Of a stretch of 49,477 nucleotides of DNA, positions 2,754-40,569 are shown in pieces. Origin of the DNA: Pirellulales bacterium. Its GTDB lineage: Bacteria > Planctomycetota > Planctomycetia > Pirellulales > Lacipirellulaceae. The notes under the pieces were generated by a model. It did not search any database. It worked only from the letters and a program-made list of their open reading frames with translations, and was not told where the DNA came from. A program made the position numbers and the translations under genes. The stretch lies in contig JAFGFZ010000482.1 in assembly GCA_016930815.1 (NCBI GenBank), positions 1 through 49,477 of the forward strand, written 5' to 3'. Within the stretch, counting starts at the first letter, position 1; every line of letters starts with the position of its first letter.

Positions 2754-3503
2754 GTGTTTGTCTGTGCTTCGACCGAATGTTTTTCTGGGATGCCACATCA
2801 AGATGTCTTTCAGACGCTAGCTGATCTGGAGTTTACATCGGTCGAGGTTGCAGTCCACGAATCGGGGGGGATTCTACGGCCATCGGATGTCCTAGCCAAC
2901 CTATCCCATTCGATCGACTTGCTCCGTGGAACACATCGACTGGCACTGACAGCGATGAGTGTCGCAATCGAGGCCGAGAAGGCTGCCTACTACGAGCAGT
3001 TTGAAGCCTGCTGCCAATTGGCCAAGGCGGTCAAGATCGTGACCATCGTTGTCCCGGCTGCCGAACTGGGCACGCCATTCAATGAAGAAATCGAACGACT
3101 GCGCGAGCTAGTCCGGATCGCATCGCTGGAAGGCGCCCTGGTCGCTCTGAAAACACAGATCGGCTGCATGACGGAAGATCCCACCACGGCCGTTGTCCTC
3201 TGCGACAATGTGCGCGGGCTCGGACTCGCCCTGGATCCAAGCCATTACATCTGCGGCCCCCATCAGGGACGTTCGTTCGATAAAGTAATCCCCTACACCT
3301 TGCACGTGCACCTTCGCGATACAACCAAAAATAAACTCCAGGTCCGCATTGGGCAGGGTGAAGTGGACTACACCCGTATTATTAATGGGCTGCGCAAGGA
3401 GAACTACAACCGGGCTTTATCCGTCCACGTGGCGCCTATGGAAGGCGTGGATCATCATGGTGAACTACGTAAACTCCGGTTACTACTGGATAGTTCCCTA
3501 TAG
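2754..3503 (+). CDS. Sugar phosphate isomerase/epimerase-like TIM barrel (metal site degenerate)
   Basis: A 249-residue xylose-isomerase-like (AP endonuclease 2) TIM barrel. The GTG start is chosen because GAGGAGG (2741-2747) lies 6 bases upstream. In this fold four metal ligands are expected: Glu, Asp, His, Glu. The Asp (LDPSHY) and His (HVHLRDT) are present. The first Glu is replaced by Lys (VALKTQ), and the last Glu (usually in a SVE block) reads SVH. The second isomerase of this window (43121-44116) keeps all four. The protein may therefore bind no metal or catalyse something else. It stands just upstream of aroE and aroK and may be co-transcribed with them. Substrate unknown. Confidence 0.8.
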   Translation: MFVCASTECFSGMPHQDVFQTLADLEFTSVEVAVHESGGILRPSDVLANLSHSIDLLRGTHRLALTAMSVAIEAEKAAYYEQFEACCQLAKAVKIVTIVVPAAELGTPFNEEIERLRELVRIASLEGALVALKTQIGCMTEDPTTAVVLCDNVRGLGLALDPSHYICGPHQGRSFDKVIPYTLHVHLRDTTKNKLQVRIGQGEVDYTRIINGLRKENYNRALSVHVAPMEGVDHHGELRKLRLLLDSSL

Positions 3504-32512: not shown

Positions 32513-32564
32513 GCCCGCATATGCCATGAGCTCCTGCTGTGCACCGGCACTGAAATATGCGGGC
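32513..32564. terminator. Shared inverted repeat between convergent genes
   Basis: GCCCGCATAT (32513-32522) and ATATGCGGGC (32555-32564) form a perfect 10-bp inverted repeat with a 32-base loop, seven bases after the HDOD stop and reaching the stop codon of the convergent oxidoreductase gene. Without a T-run, it is a possible bidirectional transcript end signal. Confidence 0.45.
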
Positions 32565-33943
32565 TAGACACTCCACGGTGCCCGGGACGCCCTCGATCGC
32601 AGTGCGTTCGCCTCGGAATCACCCACAAACTCTTCCTTGACCGGGTCCCATGTCAGAGTTCGACCTGTCCATAGGGCAATACACCCTAGATGGGCAAGTA
32701 TCGTGGAACATGCGCCAATTTCAATGTCTGCTTTTGGACGGAGCCGCGTCCGAATGCAATCGAGCCAATCCCGATGGTTTTCCTCCACCGAATGCACCTT
32801 CGGGAAGCAGCTATCCAACACGTATTTTGGGTAACAGTCCAAGAATCCGAACCGCTCAACGTGGATCCACCCTTCATCGCCCACGAAAAGAACCCCGAAG
32901 TTGGTAATCGGGGTTTTCACATTCCATCCTTCAGGAATGATATGCTGCCCCTCTTGGAGTGTCGTGGCGCAGATAATCTTCGTATCATCGGCATACTTGA
33001 ATGTGAGAGATGAAACTCCGTCGATTCCTGGGGGCGTGATTTCAACCGGGCCAGTACCATCTTTGCGGAGTCCGGCATGGGCGGAATCCAGGTTGTGGAC
33101 CAATCCAGAAGTCAAATCCCCGGCACCGAACGCCCGATTGCAGCTCCAGGGAACCACGTGCTGCGGTGGGCCAGTATGGTGATAGCGATAGTTGTACGGA
33201 TACCAGGGACATGGACCAAGCCACATATCCCAGTCCAATCCATCGGGGACTGGCTCGGCTGGCAAGTTCAAATACGGGCTCACACCACTTGACGATACAT
33301 AGGCAAGTTTCACGTCGCCGATGCGCCCAGCATGAACCATCGCAAATGCCGTGCGATAATCGGGCGAATTGCGTTGCTGCAAGCCGGTCTGGAATACTCG
33401 CTGGTGGCGCCGTACAGATTCCACCATGGTGCGCGCCTGCCGAATGGTCAGGGAAATGGGCTTTTCGCAATAGATATCCTTGCCTGCCTGGGCAGCCAGA
33501 ACACTGATGGCTGGATGCCAGCGTTCCCCCGTGGCAATGACAACCGCGTCGATGTCATGGCAAGCCAGCAACTCGCGAAAGTCGGCATACGCCCGAAATC
33601 CATGAAACAAACCGCCTGGTTGTTTGGCACCATAGGTTTTTTCAAGTGCCTCCGTGGCCGCGTTACGGCGCCATGGATCGACATCGCTCAAGGCGACAAC
33701 CTGGACGTCTGGATAATTCGTAAAGATTTGGAAATGACCGCGCCCCATCATTCCGACACCAATGAAACCGACCGTGATCCGATGGCTCGGTGCCGTTGAA
33801 CCGTTCTTCCCAAGAACACTGCCTGGAAGAACGATCGGCGCCGCCAACGCTCCAGCCGCGGTAGCCAACTCCTTGAGCATGCGACGCCGTGTTCGAAGGC
33901 TACTTCCAGAACGCCAGAATTCTTTTCTCTTGATGTCTGTCAT
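32564..33943 (-). CDS. Tat-exported Gfo/Idh/MocA family oxidoreductase
   Basis: A 459-residue NAD(P)-dependent oxidoreductase of the glucose-fructose oxidoreductase/inositol dehydrogenase family. The twin-Arg signal TRRRMLKELATAAGALAAP (about 18-36) indicates folded export. The Rossmann motif GFIGVGMMGRGHF (about 59-71) and the catalytic-loop EKP (YCEKPISLT) follow, and the C-terminal family domain has WDMWLGPCPWYPYNYRYHH. The substrate is unknown; such proteins are abundant in planctomycetes and often linked to carbohydrate use. It is the downstream end of a minus-strand series; the second Tat-exported homologue is at 38922-40238. Confidence 0.9.
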   Translation of the reverse strand: MTDIKRKEFWRSGSSLRTRRRMLKELATAAGALAAPIVLPGSVLGKNGSTAPSHRITVGFIGVGMMGRGHFQIFTNYPDVQVVALSDVDPWRRNAATEALEKTYGAKQPGGLFHGFRAYADFRELLACHDIDAVVIATGERWHPAISVLAAQAGKDIYCEKPISLTIRQARTMVESVRRHQRVFQTGLQQRNSPDYRTAFAMVHAGRIGDVKLAYVSSSGVSPYLNLPAEPVPDGLDWDMWLGPCPWYPYNYRYHHTGPPQHVVPWSCNRAFGAGDLTSGLVHNLDSAHAGLRKDGTGPVEITPPGIDGVSSLTFKYADDTKIICATTLQEGQHIIPEGWNVKTPITNFGVLFVGDEGWIHVERFGFLDCYPKYVLDSCFPKVHSVEENHRDWLDCIRTRLRPKADIEIGACSTILAHLGCIALWTGRTLTWDPVKEEFVGDSEANALRSRASRAPWSV

Positions 33944-34035
33944 TTTCTGATTTTCTTGTTGACGCTACCCAATGCGGCGGAGCCGCAATCAAATCCGAAA
34001 TTCGAAGGATCTCTCAAATCTGTCCGAATCCTATC

Positions 34036-34102
34036 TCCCTCCCCCTTGTGGAAAGGATTCCCCTATTCTCCCTCCCCCTTGTGGGGAGGGCCAGGGAGGG
34101 GG
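34036..34102. repeat. GC-rich palindromic repeats, left flank of DUF559 gene
   Basis: Two copies of a palindromic unit. Copy A (34036-34056) is TCCCTCCCCCTTGTGGAAAGG, degenerate. Copy B (34070-34102) has the two-part form CCCTCCCCCTTGTGGGGAGG then GCCAGGGAGGGG. The last codons of the DUF559 gene (reading PLPGPPHKGEGE) lie inside copy B. Copy B is the inverted counterpart of the copy at 34479-34510. Confidence 0.8.
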
Positions 34103-34446
34103 GCCCGATCATTGTGAAGTTCATCCCATATTTTTTCCAACACACCATCCAACTCCTCAAAGATCTGATCATTCCAAAACCGTATCACGCGGAATCCTTG
34201 GCTGTTGAGCCAGCGGGTCCGATCGGTATCATATCCTTTTTTCTCGCTATGTTGGCCACCGTCGAGTTCGATTACAAGTTTCTTTCCATAAGCAACAAAG
34301 TCGACAACATATGCACCGATTGGAGCCTGACGGCGAAATTTAATTCCATTCATTTGGCAACAGCGCAGGTGAAGCCAAAGCCGCTGTTCGGCGTCGGACA
34401 TGTGATTTCTCAGTTTGCGGGCGAAGTCCCGTTTCGAAAGTGACAT
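34063..34446 (-). CDS. DUF559 family endonuclease-like protein
   Basis: A 127-residue protein with the DUF559 domain, a Vsr-like restriction-endonuclease fold. After RKLRNHMSDAEQRLWLHLRC come RRQAPIGAYVVDF (Asp about 49) and the catalytic-type block KLVIELDGGQH (Glu about 60, Asp 62, His 66), then GFRVIRFWNDQI. The ATG at 34446 is chosen; a GTG at 34479 would place the N-terminus inside a repeat. The C-terminus is translated from repeat copy B. The gene is enclosed by inverted palindromic repeats and sits inside an otherwise same-strand series of metabolic genes, which suggests it arrived by insertion. No partner methylase or recombinase is seen. Function of the family is not established. Confidence 0.82.
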   Translation of the reverse strand: MSLSKRDFARKLRNHMSDAEQRLWLHLRCCQMNGIKFRRQAPIGAYVVDFVAYGKKLVIELDGGQHSEKKGYDTDRTRWLNSQGFRVIRFWNDQIFEELDGVLEKIWDELHNDRAPLPGPPHKGEGE

Positions 34447-34478
34447 GGGTAGGTAGTGCGTTGCGTTGGTTCCCGGCA

Positions 34479-34633
34479 CCCCTCCCTAGCCCTCCCCATC
34501 CAGGGGAGGGAATGAGGAAGAATACCCCTCATGGGAAAAAGTTATCTACTGCCTCCCCCTCGTAGGGAGGGCCTTCCCTTTCTCCCTCCCACTCGTGGGG
34601 AGGGCCTTCCTATTGTCTCCCTCGTGGGGAAAA
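34479..34633. repeat. GC-rich palindromic repeats, right flank of DUF559 gene
   Basis: Copy C (34479-34510, CCCCTCCCTAGCCCTCCCC then ATCCAGGGGAGGG) is the reverse complement of copy B apart from few changes, so B and C form inverted repeats around the DUF559 gene (34070-34510). Further units in the orientation of B follow in tandem: a degenerate one near 34525-34536, D (34551-34572), E (34581-34604, CCCTCCCACTCGTGGGGAGG) and F (34615-34633). The stop of the HEAT gene lies eight bases beyond. Confidence 0.8.
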
Positions 34634-34641
34634 TCGTGCTC

Positions 34642-36753
34642 CTACCGATCCTGTTTCCGGGCATCGATATCTTGGATCACTTTCGGGATCTGTTGCCGTA
34701 ACGCTTCGTCTTGTGTCAAGGATCGAATGGCCTCCAACGCAGCCCGAGCCGGTTCGGGATCGGTCTGGCTCAGACCCTTCGCCGCTTCAAAGATAGCGGC
34801 CACCACAGTACCCTGAAGTTCTGGATCGTCGACAAAATCGCGGAGCAATGCGAGCGTTTCAATCGTGCGGACTGAACCGAACCGGGACAGGATCAGCTTC
34901 TTGTCCTCGATTCGGGTTGCCAAATCGAGCGCCTGCTTGAGCCGATCGAACGTTTGTTGGGGCGGACAATCATTCGGCAGCGAGATCACGCGGGCATACG
35001 CACGCAGAGCCCAAACACGGTATGCCGGCAAATTGCCATGTCGCGCAATCTCGAATAGTTCATCAGCTACGGAGGCATCGGGCCAATTGGCAAGAGCCCG
35101 ATAACCGGCATCACGAACCGACCGGTCGGTGCTTTGCATCGCCGAATGGACGGCGCGGAGTGATTCCTCGCCCCCCATTCGGGCCAGCGACGGCAGGATC
35201 GCGCATTGACCCGCCGCGTCCGCTTTCTGGAATGCCGCGAGTAATGGCGCCGGCCGCTGAGTCGGATCGGGTATCTTTTGACAGCTTATCCAGACGGCCC
35301 GCCCCGCCGCTTCACGTTCTTCACCTTCCGAACTCCTGCACAAGAGTTCGATAAGAGTATGGATATCCCTTTCCGTTGCCATGATTTCCAATGCGTGAAA
35401 CGCTTCGATTCGGATTGCCGGATGGGAATCCTTCGCTGCTTCCAGGAATACCGGCAAAAACATGGGCGATCGCCTGGCAAGGGCACATTGCACGATGGCT
35501 GGGCTGAGGTTCCCCTCGGTTTGCATCCACCCAATGAGCGCCTGGTTGGTTCCTCGCGCGGGCATGAGCCGAAGTGTCTCGAATGCGGCGGCCCGTATCC
35601 GATCATCCTCGGCTGCAGTTGCTAGATGAGCCAGTTCGGTAACATCGTGCGCCGTTCCCGACATTCTTAACACTTTCAATGCATGGATACGAATTTCGGT
35701 GTCCGGATGGTCCAGCAATTCCAACGCGGCCGCGCGAAGTGCAGGATCGGCACGATCCTGCAAACTCACGAGGGCTGCGATTTTACCAGATAGGGGCAAT
35801 TCCGGGATGGCCGAGGCGATCGCACGAATCGCTTCCTGTTGCTTGAGGTCCACGAGGTAATCCGCGGCAACCGCCCTCTGCCACGGTTCCTCGGAAGCCA
35901 GACCGGCAATCACCATCCGTATCGATTCGGATGGCTTGGCTACCATGAGCCCACGGAAGGCAGCGGCTCGTATCCGTTCCGATTCGGCGGACTGGAGCGA
36001 TTCATAAAGCCGGACGGCTGCCGCAGGATCCCCGCGCCGACAGAGCAATTCAGCGGCGTTACATATGGCATCGGCCACCACGTGATCGAACTCTGGCGGC
36101 GCCGCGCCGGCATAGCTGCGAAGTGCCTCGGCCGCCGGCAATGTTCCGATCCGGCCAAGGGCGGTCACGGCAACTTCCGCCAATGTGTTATCCCTGGCAT
36201 GGAGCAAATCCGAAAGGATCAAAACGGCATCGGGATCGGCCAAACGGCCCAATGAAATCGCGATCCCGATCTTCTCCCTCCCCTCGGTTTTGCCGAGCAT
36301 ATCTCGAAGCGATCGCAGGGCTGCCGGGCTGCCGATATCCTCGAGGGCATAGCAGGCCATGTGCGACAACCGCGGATTCGGTAATAACTCCGCCAGCACC
36401 GGGACTGACTCATCCGATCCGACAATCCCTAATTGACGGCAGGCGTACGCTTTCGCATCGTCCGTTGCAGTTCCCCGAAGTATCGCAACCAGACGATTCT
36501 CGATGTCCATTCGAGCTTGTTCGTCCGCCCGGGACTGAACCACGGCTTGTTCGATCGGATTCAATACGGAAAGGTCCTGGCCCGGTTCCAACTTAGCCAA
36601 TGCCTGAATCGCACCATCCAATGCGGAATGATCGCCCGCACGCAACGCGACGGAGACCACGCAGAGCGACCCGCCAACTAGCAACCATTCGCAAAGCTTG
36701 ACAATCGCTAACAAATTTTTGTTGAACAAACTTATTGGATTCAAGTACTTCAT
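34642..36753 (-). CDS. Exported HEAT-repeat protein (downstream paralogue)
   Basis: A 703-residue protein with a hydrophobic N-terminal segment (about 16-38, signal peptide or anchor) followed by many HEAT/PBS-lyase-like repeats, for example DESVPVLAELLPNPRLSHMACYALEDIGSPAALRSLRDML and DPDAVLILSDLLHARDNTLAEVAVTALGRIG. HEAT arrays form protein-binding solenoids; no catalytic motif is seen. It overlaps the upstream HEAT gene by four bases (ATGA), so they are co-translated. The two have the same length and repeat style and look like an old tandem duplication, but this one ends with ordinary repeats and lacks the C-terminal domain of its neighbour. The partner is unknown. Confidence 0.85.
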   Translation of the reverse strand: MKYLNPISLFNKNLLAIVKLCEWLLVGGSLCVVSVALRAGDHSALDGAIQALAKLEPGQDLSVLNPIEQAVVQSRADEQARMDIENRLVAILRGTATDDAKAYACRQLGIVGSDESVPVLAELLPNPRLSHMACYALEDIGSPAALRSLRDMLGKTEGREKIGIAISLGRLADPDAVLILSDLLHARDNTLAEVAVTALGRIGTLPAAEALRSYAGAAPPEFDHVVADAICNAAELLCRRGDPAAAVRLYESLQSAESERIRAAAFRGLMVAKPSESIRMVIAGLASEEPWQRAVAADYLVDLKQQEAIRAIASAIPELPLSGKIAALVSLQDRADPALRAAALELLDHPDTEIRIHALKVLRMSGTAHDVTELAHLATAAEDDRIRAAAFETLRLMPARGTNQALIGWMQTEGNLSPAIVQCALARRSPMFLPVFLEAAKDSHPAIRIEAFHALEIMATERDIHTLIELLCRSSEGEEREAAGRAVWISCQKIPDPTQRPAPLLAAFQKADAAGQCAILPSLARMGGEESLRAVHSAMQSTDRSVRDAGYRALANWPDASVADELFEIARHGNLPAYRVWALRAYARVISLPNDCPPQQTFDRLKQALDLATRIEDKKLILSRFGSVRTIETLALLRDFVDDPELQGTVVAAIFEAAKGLSQTDPEPARAALEAIRSLTQDEALRQQIPKVIQDIDARKQDR

Positions 36754-38861
36754 GGCAGTAATATTGGCGCATTCTCGGGAAAGACCACTTCGCCTGACTT
36801 GCCATCCATGCGGTATTGCACCTTGAGCTGTTTCACGACATTCGGTATGGGATCGCCACCGAACGCTTCGTTGTAACTGCTCGATGGTAGCACGATGAGC
36901 GGGAAATCGCGCGCGTGCTTCTGCAGGATTGAAGTGACATCTTTGAGTGTATCCCCCGCGCCGTAGGTGGCCTTGAGAATTTCCACCTTGACCGGTTCCC
37001 GCTGCACCTGCTCGAAGAGTTTCTGAACATCGGCACCGCCGCCAATCTTGCTTGCCACAGTCATGGCGACACCAGTCGCCTTATCCCTAAGGGCAGGATT
37101 CTTGGCCGATTCGACGGCCAGCCGCAGCATGGGAACGCTCGGATAACGTTCCATCACCTGGAGCACCAGTTCCCGCTCCGCATCGCGTTCCGCGGCATCC
37201 AGGGCATTTTTGCACATTGCGGCCCGCTGATCGTCTGGCATCAAAAATTGTCGCGCCAGACGAATATAACCACGCAGCGCCCGGACCTTGTATGGACTAT
37301 TCGGAGTCTTGGCCAACTCCAATAGCCCGGGCCCTGCCTCCAAAGTCATCCAGGTTCCTAGGAGCCGGACTGCCGTGTCTTGGATTTGCGGATCCTCTGA
37401 TTTGGCAGCTTCCACGATCGTTTGCAATGCCTTGGTGCCACCCATGCCGGTGAGTGTTTCCAGGATGGCGATTTGGGCGGATTTCGGCGCTCGTTCCAAG
37501 GCATCGGCCAGTTTCCGGGCACAGGCTTCGCGATCCGGCATGCGGAGGCAAGCCGCCTGGAGCGCCCTGGACGCCGCGGGAGTGTCGTCGGATCGCGGCG
37601 GATCGACGACTCGGTCAATCAACTCGGGCAGGTCCTCCCACTGAGCCACTTCTCCGAGGGCCACGAGGGCTGCAGTGCGCACCTGCCCATCCGCATCATC
37701 GATCGCCGCAAGCAGCGGCGGTACCGCATCCATGCGGCGCCTGCCGACCAACTCAAGAAGCACAATGCGTTCTTTCCCTTTGGCGGAATTCAAACGCGCC
37801 ACAAGATCCCTATCGACATGATTCCCAGGTAGCTCCTGGAGAGCCGCCGTGGCAGTCCGTGCCACTTCTTCATTCTCTTCGGTCGCGGCGATTAACAAGA
37901 CAGGGATGCAGGTGGCATCTCCGAGGCGCTTCAGTACTTCGATTGCTGCAACTCGGACGGGGACCGGCCCATCCTTGGCCGCGTCCAACATGGCGGGCAT
38001 CGCTTCCGAATCGCCACGGTCCGCGATCGCCAGAATCAACATGGCTTGCCGGTCGGGTGCCATGCGGGTTAATGATGCAAGTAGCTTCTTCGATACGCCG
38101 GGTCCAGTCAGTTCACGCGCAGTCGAAAGTCCGATGGCCACCATCGCCTGGTCACTTGATACGAGCTGCTCGACCAACAGACCGACGCCATCGGCACCGC
38201 GGGCCAAGATCGCGCCGCGGGTTGCTTCAACGATACGCGGCTTTGGCACGCCGGCTGTTCGCACTGCGTCGTAAAGGCCGGCCGCCTGATCCTTTTTTCC
38301 ATCGTTGAGCATTTTTTCAGCGCATAAAATACAACCTTCGGCGACGGCCGAACGCACGGCCTCGGGTGTATCGACGAGGGCCTGGCGCAGCGCGGCGGTG
38401 GCTGGCGCATTCCCAATGTGCCCCAAGGCAACCGCGGCTGCCGAAGCAATGCCCGGATCGGCATCCCGCATGTGCTTGATGAGTCCATCGACAGCCTGTT
38501 CGTCACGCCGTACACCGATGGAATGGATCACTCCCATCAACGATCGCCCTTCCAATTGCCCCATTGCCTGCCGCAAAGCCCCATCAGCGGCTGGATCCGG
38601 AATCACTTCCAGCGCGATGCGCGCCCACGATTCAAGCTCGGGATCATGGAGCAGAGCAGCCAAGGCGGGAACGGCCTTGTGCGAGCCCCAGACGGCCAGT
38701 TTCCTGCACGCCAGTGCCTTGTCCGCTTTGGGAACATCCGATTGCAGTAATTCAATCAACGGCTGCTCATCTTCCGCAACCAATGCTACCGGGGTTGTGA
38801 AATGGACTGCCGCCGCCACCATCATCACAGCAATCACCAGAGAGTTTCGATGGCTGATCAT
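36750..38861 (-). CDS. Exported HEAT-repeat protein (upstream paralogue)
   Basis: The ATG at 38861 follows GAGG at 8 bases and gives 703 residues. A signal peptide (RNSLVIAVMMVAAAVHFTTPVALVA) precedes HEAT repeats such as DEQAVDGLIKHMRDADPGIASAAAVALGHIG and VPVLLIAATEENEEVARTATAALQELPG. The last 70 residues (ATYGAGDTLKDVTSILQKHA ... NVVKQLKVQYRMDGKSGEV) look like a separate small beta-rich domain, resembling the C-terminal DUF3395-type domain; this resemblance was judged by eye. Its stop overlaps the next HEAT gene. The Tat-exported oxidoreductase at 38922-40238 lies 60 bases upstream on the same strand, so a joint envelope function is plausible. Confidence 0.84.
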   Translation of the reverse strand: MISHRNSLVIAVMMVAAAVHFTTPVALVAEDEQPLIELLQSDVPKADKALACRKLAVWGSHKAVPALAALLHDPELESWARIALEVIPDPAADGALRQAMGQLEGRSLMGVIHSIGVRRDEQAVDGLIKHMRDADPGIASAAAVALGHIGNAPATAALRQALVDTPEAVRSAVAEGCILCAEKMLNDGKKDQAAGLYDAVRTAGVPKPRIVEATRGAILARGADGVGLLVEQLVSSDQAMVAIGLSTARELTGPGVSKKLLASLTRMAPDRQAMLILAIADRGDSEAMPAMLDAAKDGPVPVRVAAIEVLKRLGDATCIPVLLIAATEENEEVARTATAALQELPGNHVDRDLVARLNSAKGKERIVLLELVGRRRMDAVPPLLAAIDDADGQVRTAALVALGEVAQWEDLPELIDRVVDPPRSDDTPAASRALQAACLRMPDREACARKLADALERAPKSAQIAILETLTGMGGTKALQTIVEAAKSEDPQIQDTAVRLLGTWMTLEAGPGLLELAKTPNSPYKVRALRGYIRLARQFLMPDDQRAAMCKNALDAAERDAERELVLQVMERYPSVPMLRLAVESAKNPALRDKATGVAMTVASKIGGGADVQKLFEQVQREPVKVEILKATYGAGDTLKDVTSILQKHARDFPLIVLPSSSYNEAFGGDPIPNVVKQLKVQYRMDGKSGEVVFPENAPILLP

Positions 38862-38921
38862 GATTTTGTCCTCGGATGAAATGGGGTTATTTTTCAATTT
38901 TGCACGCAACACTTTTCAGTT

Positions 38922-40238
38922 TTAGATCCTCCACGGCGCTCGTATCGCTTCGCTCCGCAAACGATTGGCCTGCTCATCACCAAGAAACTCATGTTGAACT
39001 GGATCGAATTGAACCTTACGACCAAGGAATAGCGCGATATTGGTTGCGTGACAAGCAATGTGTGAATAGCACGCGATATCCGCATTGCATTTGGGTTGAC
39101 TTCGGGTTTTCACGCAGTCAAGGAAATCGCGTACATGGAACGTGGCCGGGTATCCTCCAATTTCTTCCACTTTCCTGCCGGCCAGTAGTTCCGGTGAACT
39201 GAGAACGAATTTACCGCTATCCCCCGTTTCGATCCAACCGGTATCGCCCTCGAAACGGACCGGGCAGGAGCCGAGTGGCAACCAGTCCTTCTCACGTAGA
39301 ATTAACTTCACCCCATCCGCATACGTGGCGACAATCTGGCCATCCTCCGGCGGGCAGTATTCGACTGGCGCGGTACTATCCTTGTCGGCCGCCCATTGGC
39401 ACAGGTCGACGCAATGCGAGCCCCATTCAAGCACACCACCGCCAAGGAATTGGCCCCCCGGTTCAAAGGTGCCCATGAATCCGCCACCTTTTTCGAAATG
39501 AAAGCCGTTGAGCATGACACTGTTGAAGGGACGCCACGCCGCTGGGCCAAGATACATATCCCAGTCGACCTTCTCGATCGGCGGAGCCTCCTGGGGCGGC
39601 AACCAGCGGCTCATCGCTGTCGTCATTCCGGCCGGATGGGCATAAACGGTGCGCAGTGGTCCCAGCCTCCCCGTGCGAGCCAGCTCGCAGGCAAAGGCAA
39701 AGTGCGGCAAGTTCCTCCGCTGAGTGCCCGCTTGAAACACACGCCCGCAACGGCGCATGGTTTCCGCCAGCAACAAACTCTGCGAAATGTTCTTGGTGCA
39801 CGGTTTTTCACAATAGATGTCCTTGCCGGCACGGGCCGAATAGATGGCCGCTGTCGCATGCCAGTTCGGTCCCGTGGCGATGAGAACGGCATCGATATCG
39901 CTGCGATCCAATAGCTCGCGGAAATCGCAGTACATTGCACAGTCCCTGTTCTGGTACTTCTGGTCAGCCAGTTGTTTGACCGCCACACGACGTGCTTCCT
40001 TGACATCGCATACCGCGACGAATTGCACGTCCGGTTGCTCCAGGAAACAACCCAGGTCATAGGTTCCTCGACCGCCAATCCCGATGCCACCTAGTACAAT
40101 CCGTTCGCTAGGTGGTACTGCGCCATCCTTCCCCAGTGCCGAGCCAGGAATCACATGAGGCACGGCAAGAAGAGTACTGGCTCCAGCCATCGCCTTGACG
40201 AACTGCCGCCGATTAAGTGGTTTGGTCTGTTGCGACAT
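38922..40238 (-). CDS. Tat-exported Gfo/Idh/MocA family oxidoreductase
   Basis: The ATG at 40238 follows AGAGGA at about 8 bases and gives 438 residues. The Tat signal is NRRQFVKAMAGASTLLAVP (about 9-27). The Rossmann motif GGIGIGGRGTYD follows, with YCEKPCTKN as the catalytic-loop motif and WDMYLGPAAWRPFN in the second domain, as in its paralogue at 32564-33943. Both end with a similar block (EFLGDEQANRLRSEAIRAPWRI here). It is the first gene of the minus-strand series that continues with the two HEAT proteins. The substrate, probably a sugar derivative, is not readable. Confidence 0.9.
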   Translation of the reverse strand: MSQQTKPLNRRQFVKAMAGASTLLAVPHVIPGSALGKDGAVPPSERIVLGGIGIGGRGTYDLGCFLEQPDVQFVAVCDVKEARRVAVKQLADQKYQNRDCAMYCDFRELLDRSDIDAVLIATGPNWHATAAIYSARAGKDIYCEKPCTKNISQSLLLAETMRRCGRVFQAGTQRRNLPHFAFACELARTGRLGPLRTVYAHPAGMTTAMSRWLPPQEAPPIEKVDWDMYLGPAAWRPFNSVMLNGFHFEKGGGFMGTFEPGGQFLGGGVLEWGSHCVDLCQWAADKDSTAPVEYCPPEDGQIVATYADGVKLILREKDWLPLGSCPVRFEGDTGWIETGDSGKFVLSSPELLAGRKVEEIGGYPATFHVRDFLDCVKTRSQPKCNADIACYSHIACHATNIALFLGRKVQFDPVQHEFLGDEQANRLRSEAIRAPWRI

Positions 40239-40569
40239 GATGGGTCCTCTGTTTTGCACCGGTTGAACGTTGATGGAAATGAAAATGAATAAGCCACCGT
40301 ACGGCTCAATATCCTTATCCCTAATTTGAAGAATCGTATCCTCGCTATTCCGACAACCCCCACACCACCGACGACAGGATTCCCGTCTTTTTCGACTGCA
40401 GTGAAAGGCAATGCGTCATGGCGAGCCAAGCAGAATCATGGAGACGTCCGGCTGGCTGCTTGTGAATTCGCACTCCATAGCCACGTCCCCATCCATTGAT
40501 CAATCAACGTCAAGAGCAGCCGGGTATACAGAATGAATCCGGTGTTCGGGCCGGAAAAGCCGGAAAAGG
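40239..40569. other. Intergenic region between tRNA-His and oxidoreductase gene
   Basis: The 331 bases contain no recognisable gene. Directly next to the tRNA lies a short tandem CCGGAAAAG duplication (about 40552-40568). The oxidoreductase promoter should be here but no clear boxes were found. No integrase or attachment-like repeat of the tRNA end was seen. Confidence 0.5.

Follow-up and report, generated by a model that had tools for sequence, protein, structure and literature searches.

A small endonuclease gene of the DUF559 family, enclosed by two inverted structured repeats in the genome of a Pirellulales bacterium, probably constitutes a minimal mobile element that resembles REPIN/RAYT systems, with the nuclease gene lying between inverted terminal units. 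The gene is located in the stretch of DNA analysed here (the window, 49,477 nt). A Pfam search assigned the minus-strand ORF at 34063-34479 to PF04480 with an E value of 3e-42 and 143.4 bits, exceeding the gathering score of 20.6. The block comprises the following features:

34063-34479, minus strand: DUF559 (PF04480) endonuclease gene, 138 aa from the GTG at 34479, likely start at the ATG at 34446
34070-34101, plus strand: unit B, with palindrome (34070-34090), spacer CCA and gene-facing mirror tail GGGAGGGG (34094-34101)
34479-34510, minus strand: unit C, the inverted partner of B, with palindrome (34490-34510), spacer TAG and gene-facing tail (34479-34486)
34037-34057, plus strand: degenerate extra palindrome outside B, 3 mismatches
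34551-34571, plus strand: extra tandem palindrome unit without tail (pattern match)
34584-34604, plus strand: extra tandem palindrome unit without tail (pattern match)
34616-34630, plus strand: partial extra unit with core TCTCCCTCGTGGGGA

The ATG is the likely start, judged from those relatives in which an ATG comes just after the tail. Read towards the gene, units B and C both consist of CCCTCCCC, five variable nucleotides, GGGGAGGG, a 3-base spacer and GGGAGGGG, which is an exact mirror of the second arm. The palindrome is CCCTCCCC-CTTGT-GGGGAGGG in B and CCCTCCCC-ATCCA-GGGGAGGG in C, where the tail reads CCCCTCCC. The stem comprises 8 bp in both units, and by inspection the tail mirrors the adjacent arm at 8/8 positions in each. 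Together they form an inverted pair of 37 nt (84% complementary) that brackets the gene, and the two tails point towards it. This confirms the reverse-complementary arrangement of the two copies given in the preliminary description. Its statement that the last codons of the gene are read from copy B also holds: unit B encodes the C-terminal ~14 codons (ending ...PLPGPPHKGEGE). The four further units named there are present at slightly shifted positions (34037, 34551, 34584 and ~34616) and have no tails. In the window the palindrome pattern is matched 5 times (0.47 expected), a number reached in 0 of 100 shuffles. The block indeed sits inside a same-strand gene series; paired HEAT-repeat and Gfo/Idh oxidoreductase genes share one strand from 32564 to 40259 and are tightly spaced save at the DUF559 block.

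Within the 5.55-Mb assembly of this organism (a MAG, 89% complete) the exact window palindrome is present at this locus only, with no dispersed copies, and the reversed-pattern control gave 0 matches. The assembly contains a second small DUF559 gene (C63:13-318), which is followed by a related unit with a long loop; its upstream side is the contig edge. An Rfam search gave no match. MITE-like repeats on three other contigs (C240, C384 and C479; L008, L011 and L013) have a CCCTCACCCC-CCCTCTCCC unit between ends resembling AATAACTT/AAGTTATT and seem to form a small family of their own.

The surroundings of 22 small DUF559 genes from the window's family, its own gene included, were compared over as much as 20 kb. 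GC-rich perfect hairpins reached a density of 6.8 per kb within 100 bp of these genes, versus about 0.2 per kb beyond 300 bp. In a strict screen a unit-type hairpin was close to 20 of the 22 genes, for some of them on one side only, and the remaining two (L133 and L135) have a unit with a ~60-nt loop. Across the phylum, 76 of 85 small DUF559 genes from a Pfam-based sample are spanned by an inverted repeat that scores above 99% of the controls (99th percentile of 1097 positions in those loci). The full cross-phyla set of 80 loci is biased because the query included the repeat-encoded tail, and counting was therefore restricted to loci whose match ends before that tail; in the named set, 16 of 22 such loci passed the inverted-repeat test, and taken together the passing loci represent at least 11 phyla. 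The mirror tail shows the same orientation beyond the window. Among the hairpins of the family, a segment mirroring the arm (threshold at least 0.85) was found on 27/36 gene-facing and 4/36 outward sides, compared to 8.8% of control sides, and in the cross-phyla set on 90/128 gene-facing and 14/128 outer sides. Whether repeats cluster at DUF559 loci had been put forward as a check in the preliminary description; they do so, both by density around the 22 genes and phylum-wide, and not at the 30 Y1 (RAYT-type) loci inspected.

Some of the more distant loci have their own features. A gene of the 3hrl kind in N. gonorrhoeae is flanked on either side by similar units of hairpin and tail (L438, ~780-820 and 1400-1460), which are direct and not inverted. 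On Azospirillum plasmids a DUF559 gene is conserved near prfA, and no empty site was found at this locus. In Sinorhizobium K101 the DUF559 gene is followed by a mosaic repeat (L331, ~2890-3040) that is found widely in rhizobial plasmids and that we take to be RIME-like. RIME may be a local version of the DUF559-repeat system. The comparison of K101 to S. meliloti Ak57 was rejected as an empty site, since the difference is a deletion from inside DUF559 into the adjacent RIME-like repeat.

The repeat type follows the clade of the nuclease gene. On a tree of 23 DUF559 genes the four repeat types, which were assigned by eye, require 3 changes, the minimum, while shuffled labels never required fewer than 7. 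Five genomes (G398, G394, G411, G438 and G000) have DUF559 genes of two clades, each accompanied by the repeat type of its clade, and the repeat type is therefore tied to the gene rather than the genome. An automatic correlation of unit and protein within genomes was borderline (29 of 500 permutations). In a separate label test, the motif labels left 88 of all 196 proteins unlabelled, and the hand-assigned family test was used instead.

In relatives, populations of dispersed units were observed, arranged as REPIN-like inverted pairs that lack the gene. Exact palindromes number 277 in genome G406, which has one DUF559 gene. In the 100 palindromes listed, 43 successive pairs are 61-114 bp apart, 41 of them at 68-73 bp, and the pair ends are conserved; by chance 1.1 pairs closer than 200 bp would be expected. 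Many inverted pairs at near-constant spacing, as they are typical for REPINs, are thus present in G406 and not in the window's own genome. Over 44 genomes the number of palindromes was higher in those with DUF559 (medians 14.5 versus 0; Mann-Whitney P 0.0017, not corrected for phylogeny). An exception is G396, with 53 exact palindromes and no DUF559 gene detected in a 96% complete genome, which represents either an orphaned repeat population or one that has lost its partner.

Whole elements were also found in frame within genes for HsdR (at two positions), HsdM and HMG-CoA lyase. At these loci (L033, L036, L041, L043, L039 and L256) the DUF559 element is fused to the host protein by repeat-encoded linkers, and the HsdR proteins concerned also contain smaller repeat-encoded peptides. 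Palindromes inserted in frame in genes are known from the Rickettsia palindromic elements, which share this feature with the present ones; to our knowledge, they encode no nuclease. Among homologous HsdR genes, some have the element where others do not, and vice versa: L314-L316 carry it at site 1 and L317-L320 lack it there, and at site 2 it occurs in L318, with L314-L316 and L319 being empty. Five genomes from four genera carry the element at the junction of the aldehyde-DH and Fe-alcohol dehydrogenase (Fe-ADH) genes. About 20 genomes, among them congeners, have the junction without element, mostly with gaps of 8-130 bp, and two more have a lone palindrome only. In the congeneric genomes G394 and G407, Fe-ADH is 88% identical and DUF559 only 54%, which suggests replacement or independent insertion. 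The empty sites that the preliminary description had called for were therefore found in relatives, at the Fe-ADH junction and in HsdR, but not for the locus of the window. Relatives have the oxidoreductase-HEAT pair in common with the window but lack this junction, and they were rejected as an empty orthologous site.

The design of the units, judged from sequence, is that of the intrastrand triplex repeats BoxC, PIT and TM described by Holder et al. (PMC4666352). Such repeats have been reported from more than 260 genomes, triplex formation in vitro was demonstrated for the E. coli motif, and an origin and function have been lacking since the 1990s (PMC4666352). The likeness extends from the order of arm, loop, arm, spacer and mirror tail to the inverted pairs and to similar deletions between the arms. 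Holder et al. report no association of the triplex repeats with transposons or mobile elements, whereas the units described here are tied to the DUF559 family; neither "endonuclease" nor "DUF" is mentioned in the text of PMC4666352. In one E. coli record we found 33 matches to this design, with copies such as GGGAGAGGGTTAGGGTGAGGG, and one of these units adjoins ycjD, the DUF559 gene of E. coli. The E. coli units are identified as BoxC by their sequence match to entries of Table 1 of PMC4666352.

E. coli strains differ at the BoxC pair between hrpB and mrcB: some have the complete pair, in others it has collapsed to a single hairpin, and others lack it, through either gain or loss, and thus provide a further empty site. 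No target-site duplication was recognised, with no clear one at the hrpB-mrcB pair. A query with the BoxC pair seems to match fewer places in UTI89 and ST131 (L332, L338, L339 and L372). In the same comparison ycjD was missing between sapF and fabI in Nissle 1917 and, seemingly, in O157:H7; this was rejected as a clean empty site, since an efflux operon occupies the locus.

The DUF559 protein of the window is predicted to adopt a Vsr/homing-endonuclease fold of the PD-(D/E)XK type. The AlphaFold model has a mean pLDDT of 78.9, with values of at least 90 over most of the core. Among solved structures it matched 3hrl (N. gonorrhoeae NGO0050) with an E value of 2.2e-8 and the catalytic domain of the homing endonuclease I-Bth0305I (3r3p) with 1.7e-5 and a TM-score of 0.76 on the target, while the match to Vsr (1cw0) was weaker (E 0.01). 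E31, D60, E71, D73, H77 and R100 are invariant in the DUF559 alignment, and the first five fit a putative nuclease active site. Known Vsr-like homing endonucleases reside in introns or close to inteins. The likeness to I-Bth0305I is in the catalytic fold; the ends here are structured repeats, and neither an intron nor an intein was observed.

The preliminary description had drawn a parallel to REP/RAYT systems with a Vsr-like nuclease. The parallel is supported by the linkage of gene and repeat, the coupling to clades, the REPIN-like pairs, and the insertions and empty sites; as to the nuclease, a homing endonuclease is the better match than Vsr, and mobilisation by the protein is an inference there as here. 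In common with REPIN-RAYT systems (PMC3116915), one or few copies of a nuclease gene are flanked by palindromes and many inverted pairs have near-constant length, the repeat type is coupled to the gene clade, and distinct systems coexist in one genome. The differences are that the nuclease has the DUF559/Vsr fold and is not a Y1 HuH tyrosine transposase, that complete elements with their gene also occur in frame within coding sequences, and that mirror tails take the place of the GTAG/CGTC tags (PMC3733652). Because its partner is no Y1 transposase, the DUF559 block is REPIN/RAYT-like without being a member of that class.

We consider DUF559 as the mobiliser of the units to be the best-supported inference. 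In each unit the hairpin and its gene-facing mirror tail could form an intrastrand triplex. When the element becomes single-stranded, e.g., at a replication fork, the cognate DUF559 nuclease would recognise the two structured ends and would nick or cut the ends of the element and/or the target, and host repair and replication would copy the unit into a new site, as proposed for the mobilisation of REPINs by RAYTs, though with a different nuclease. The single-stranded or triplex intermediate and the position of the cut are parts of this proposal.

Of the 44 genomes of the family, 41 encode Y1 (RAYT-type) transposases, and the pairs are organised as in REPINs. The repeats could accordingly be REPs of an ordinary RAYT (Y1 HuH) encoded elsewhere in the genome, with DUF559 as a passenger. 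However, DUF559-type hairpins were found within 300 bp of 0 of 30 inspected Y1 loci, and G431 has no Y1 match and yet DUF559 with units, so that we regard this as very improbable. Most of the 30 loci carry palindromes of the CCAGGGGC or CCCAGGGC type or others, which argues for two independent systems that coexist. In this lineage, the common flanking of Y1 transposases by CCAGGGGC/CCCAGGGC-type palindromes (L408-L437) represents a REP/RAYT system of the classical kind.

DUF559 could also be a (Vsr/VSP-like) nuclease of host repair acting on repeats that form hairpins or triplexes; these repeats would be kept next to the gene for regulation or as substrates and spread by another agent or by replication slippage. 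For the DUF559 protein VsrA of Caulobacter a role in mismatch repair was proposed (PMC12907096), and some members of the family may therefore be host repair enzymes. The Vsr-like fold of the model and the between-arm deletions of the pair in E. coli, also reported in PMC4666352, fit this view, but a gene that lies together with its inverted ends in frame within unrelated host genes, a repeat type that tracks the gene clade within one genome and REPIN-like pairs of near-constant length do not, and we consider it unlikely. Somewhat less likely still is a homing cassette, in which the nuclease would cleave alleles without the element at one fixed position, homologous repair would copy the element in, and the dispersed pairs would be by-products. 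This would agree with the homing-endonuclease fold, with one junction that is occupied in four genera and empty in sister species, and with the discordant elements of G394 and G407. The REPIN-like pairs at many unrelated sites and the differing insertion sites in HsdR point to a transposition-like spread too.

Beyond the mobile element of the window, we see about an even chance that the mobilisers of BoxC/triplex repeats across bacteria, long missing, are the DUF559 nucleases, and that these form a new class of replicating element with structured single-strand ends, a Vsr-fold nuclease and no known transposase. The link between DUF559 and repeats may have been described earlier elsewhere, as the literature consulted was open-access. 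Such a link to a small nuclease would give a testable cause for the BoxC/PIT/triplex repeats, would explain the repeat-encoded tails of DUF559 proteins, and would mean that a second class of enzymes, unrelated to the first, can generate repeats in the REPIN manner. E. coli K-12 with its ycjD gene would be a ready model system.
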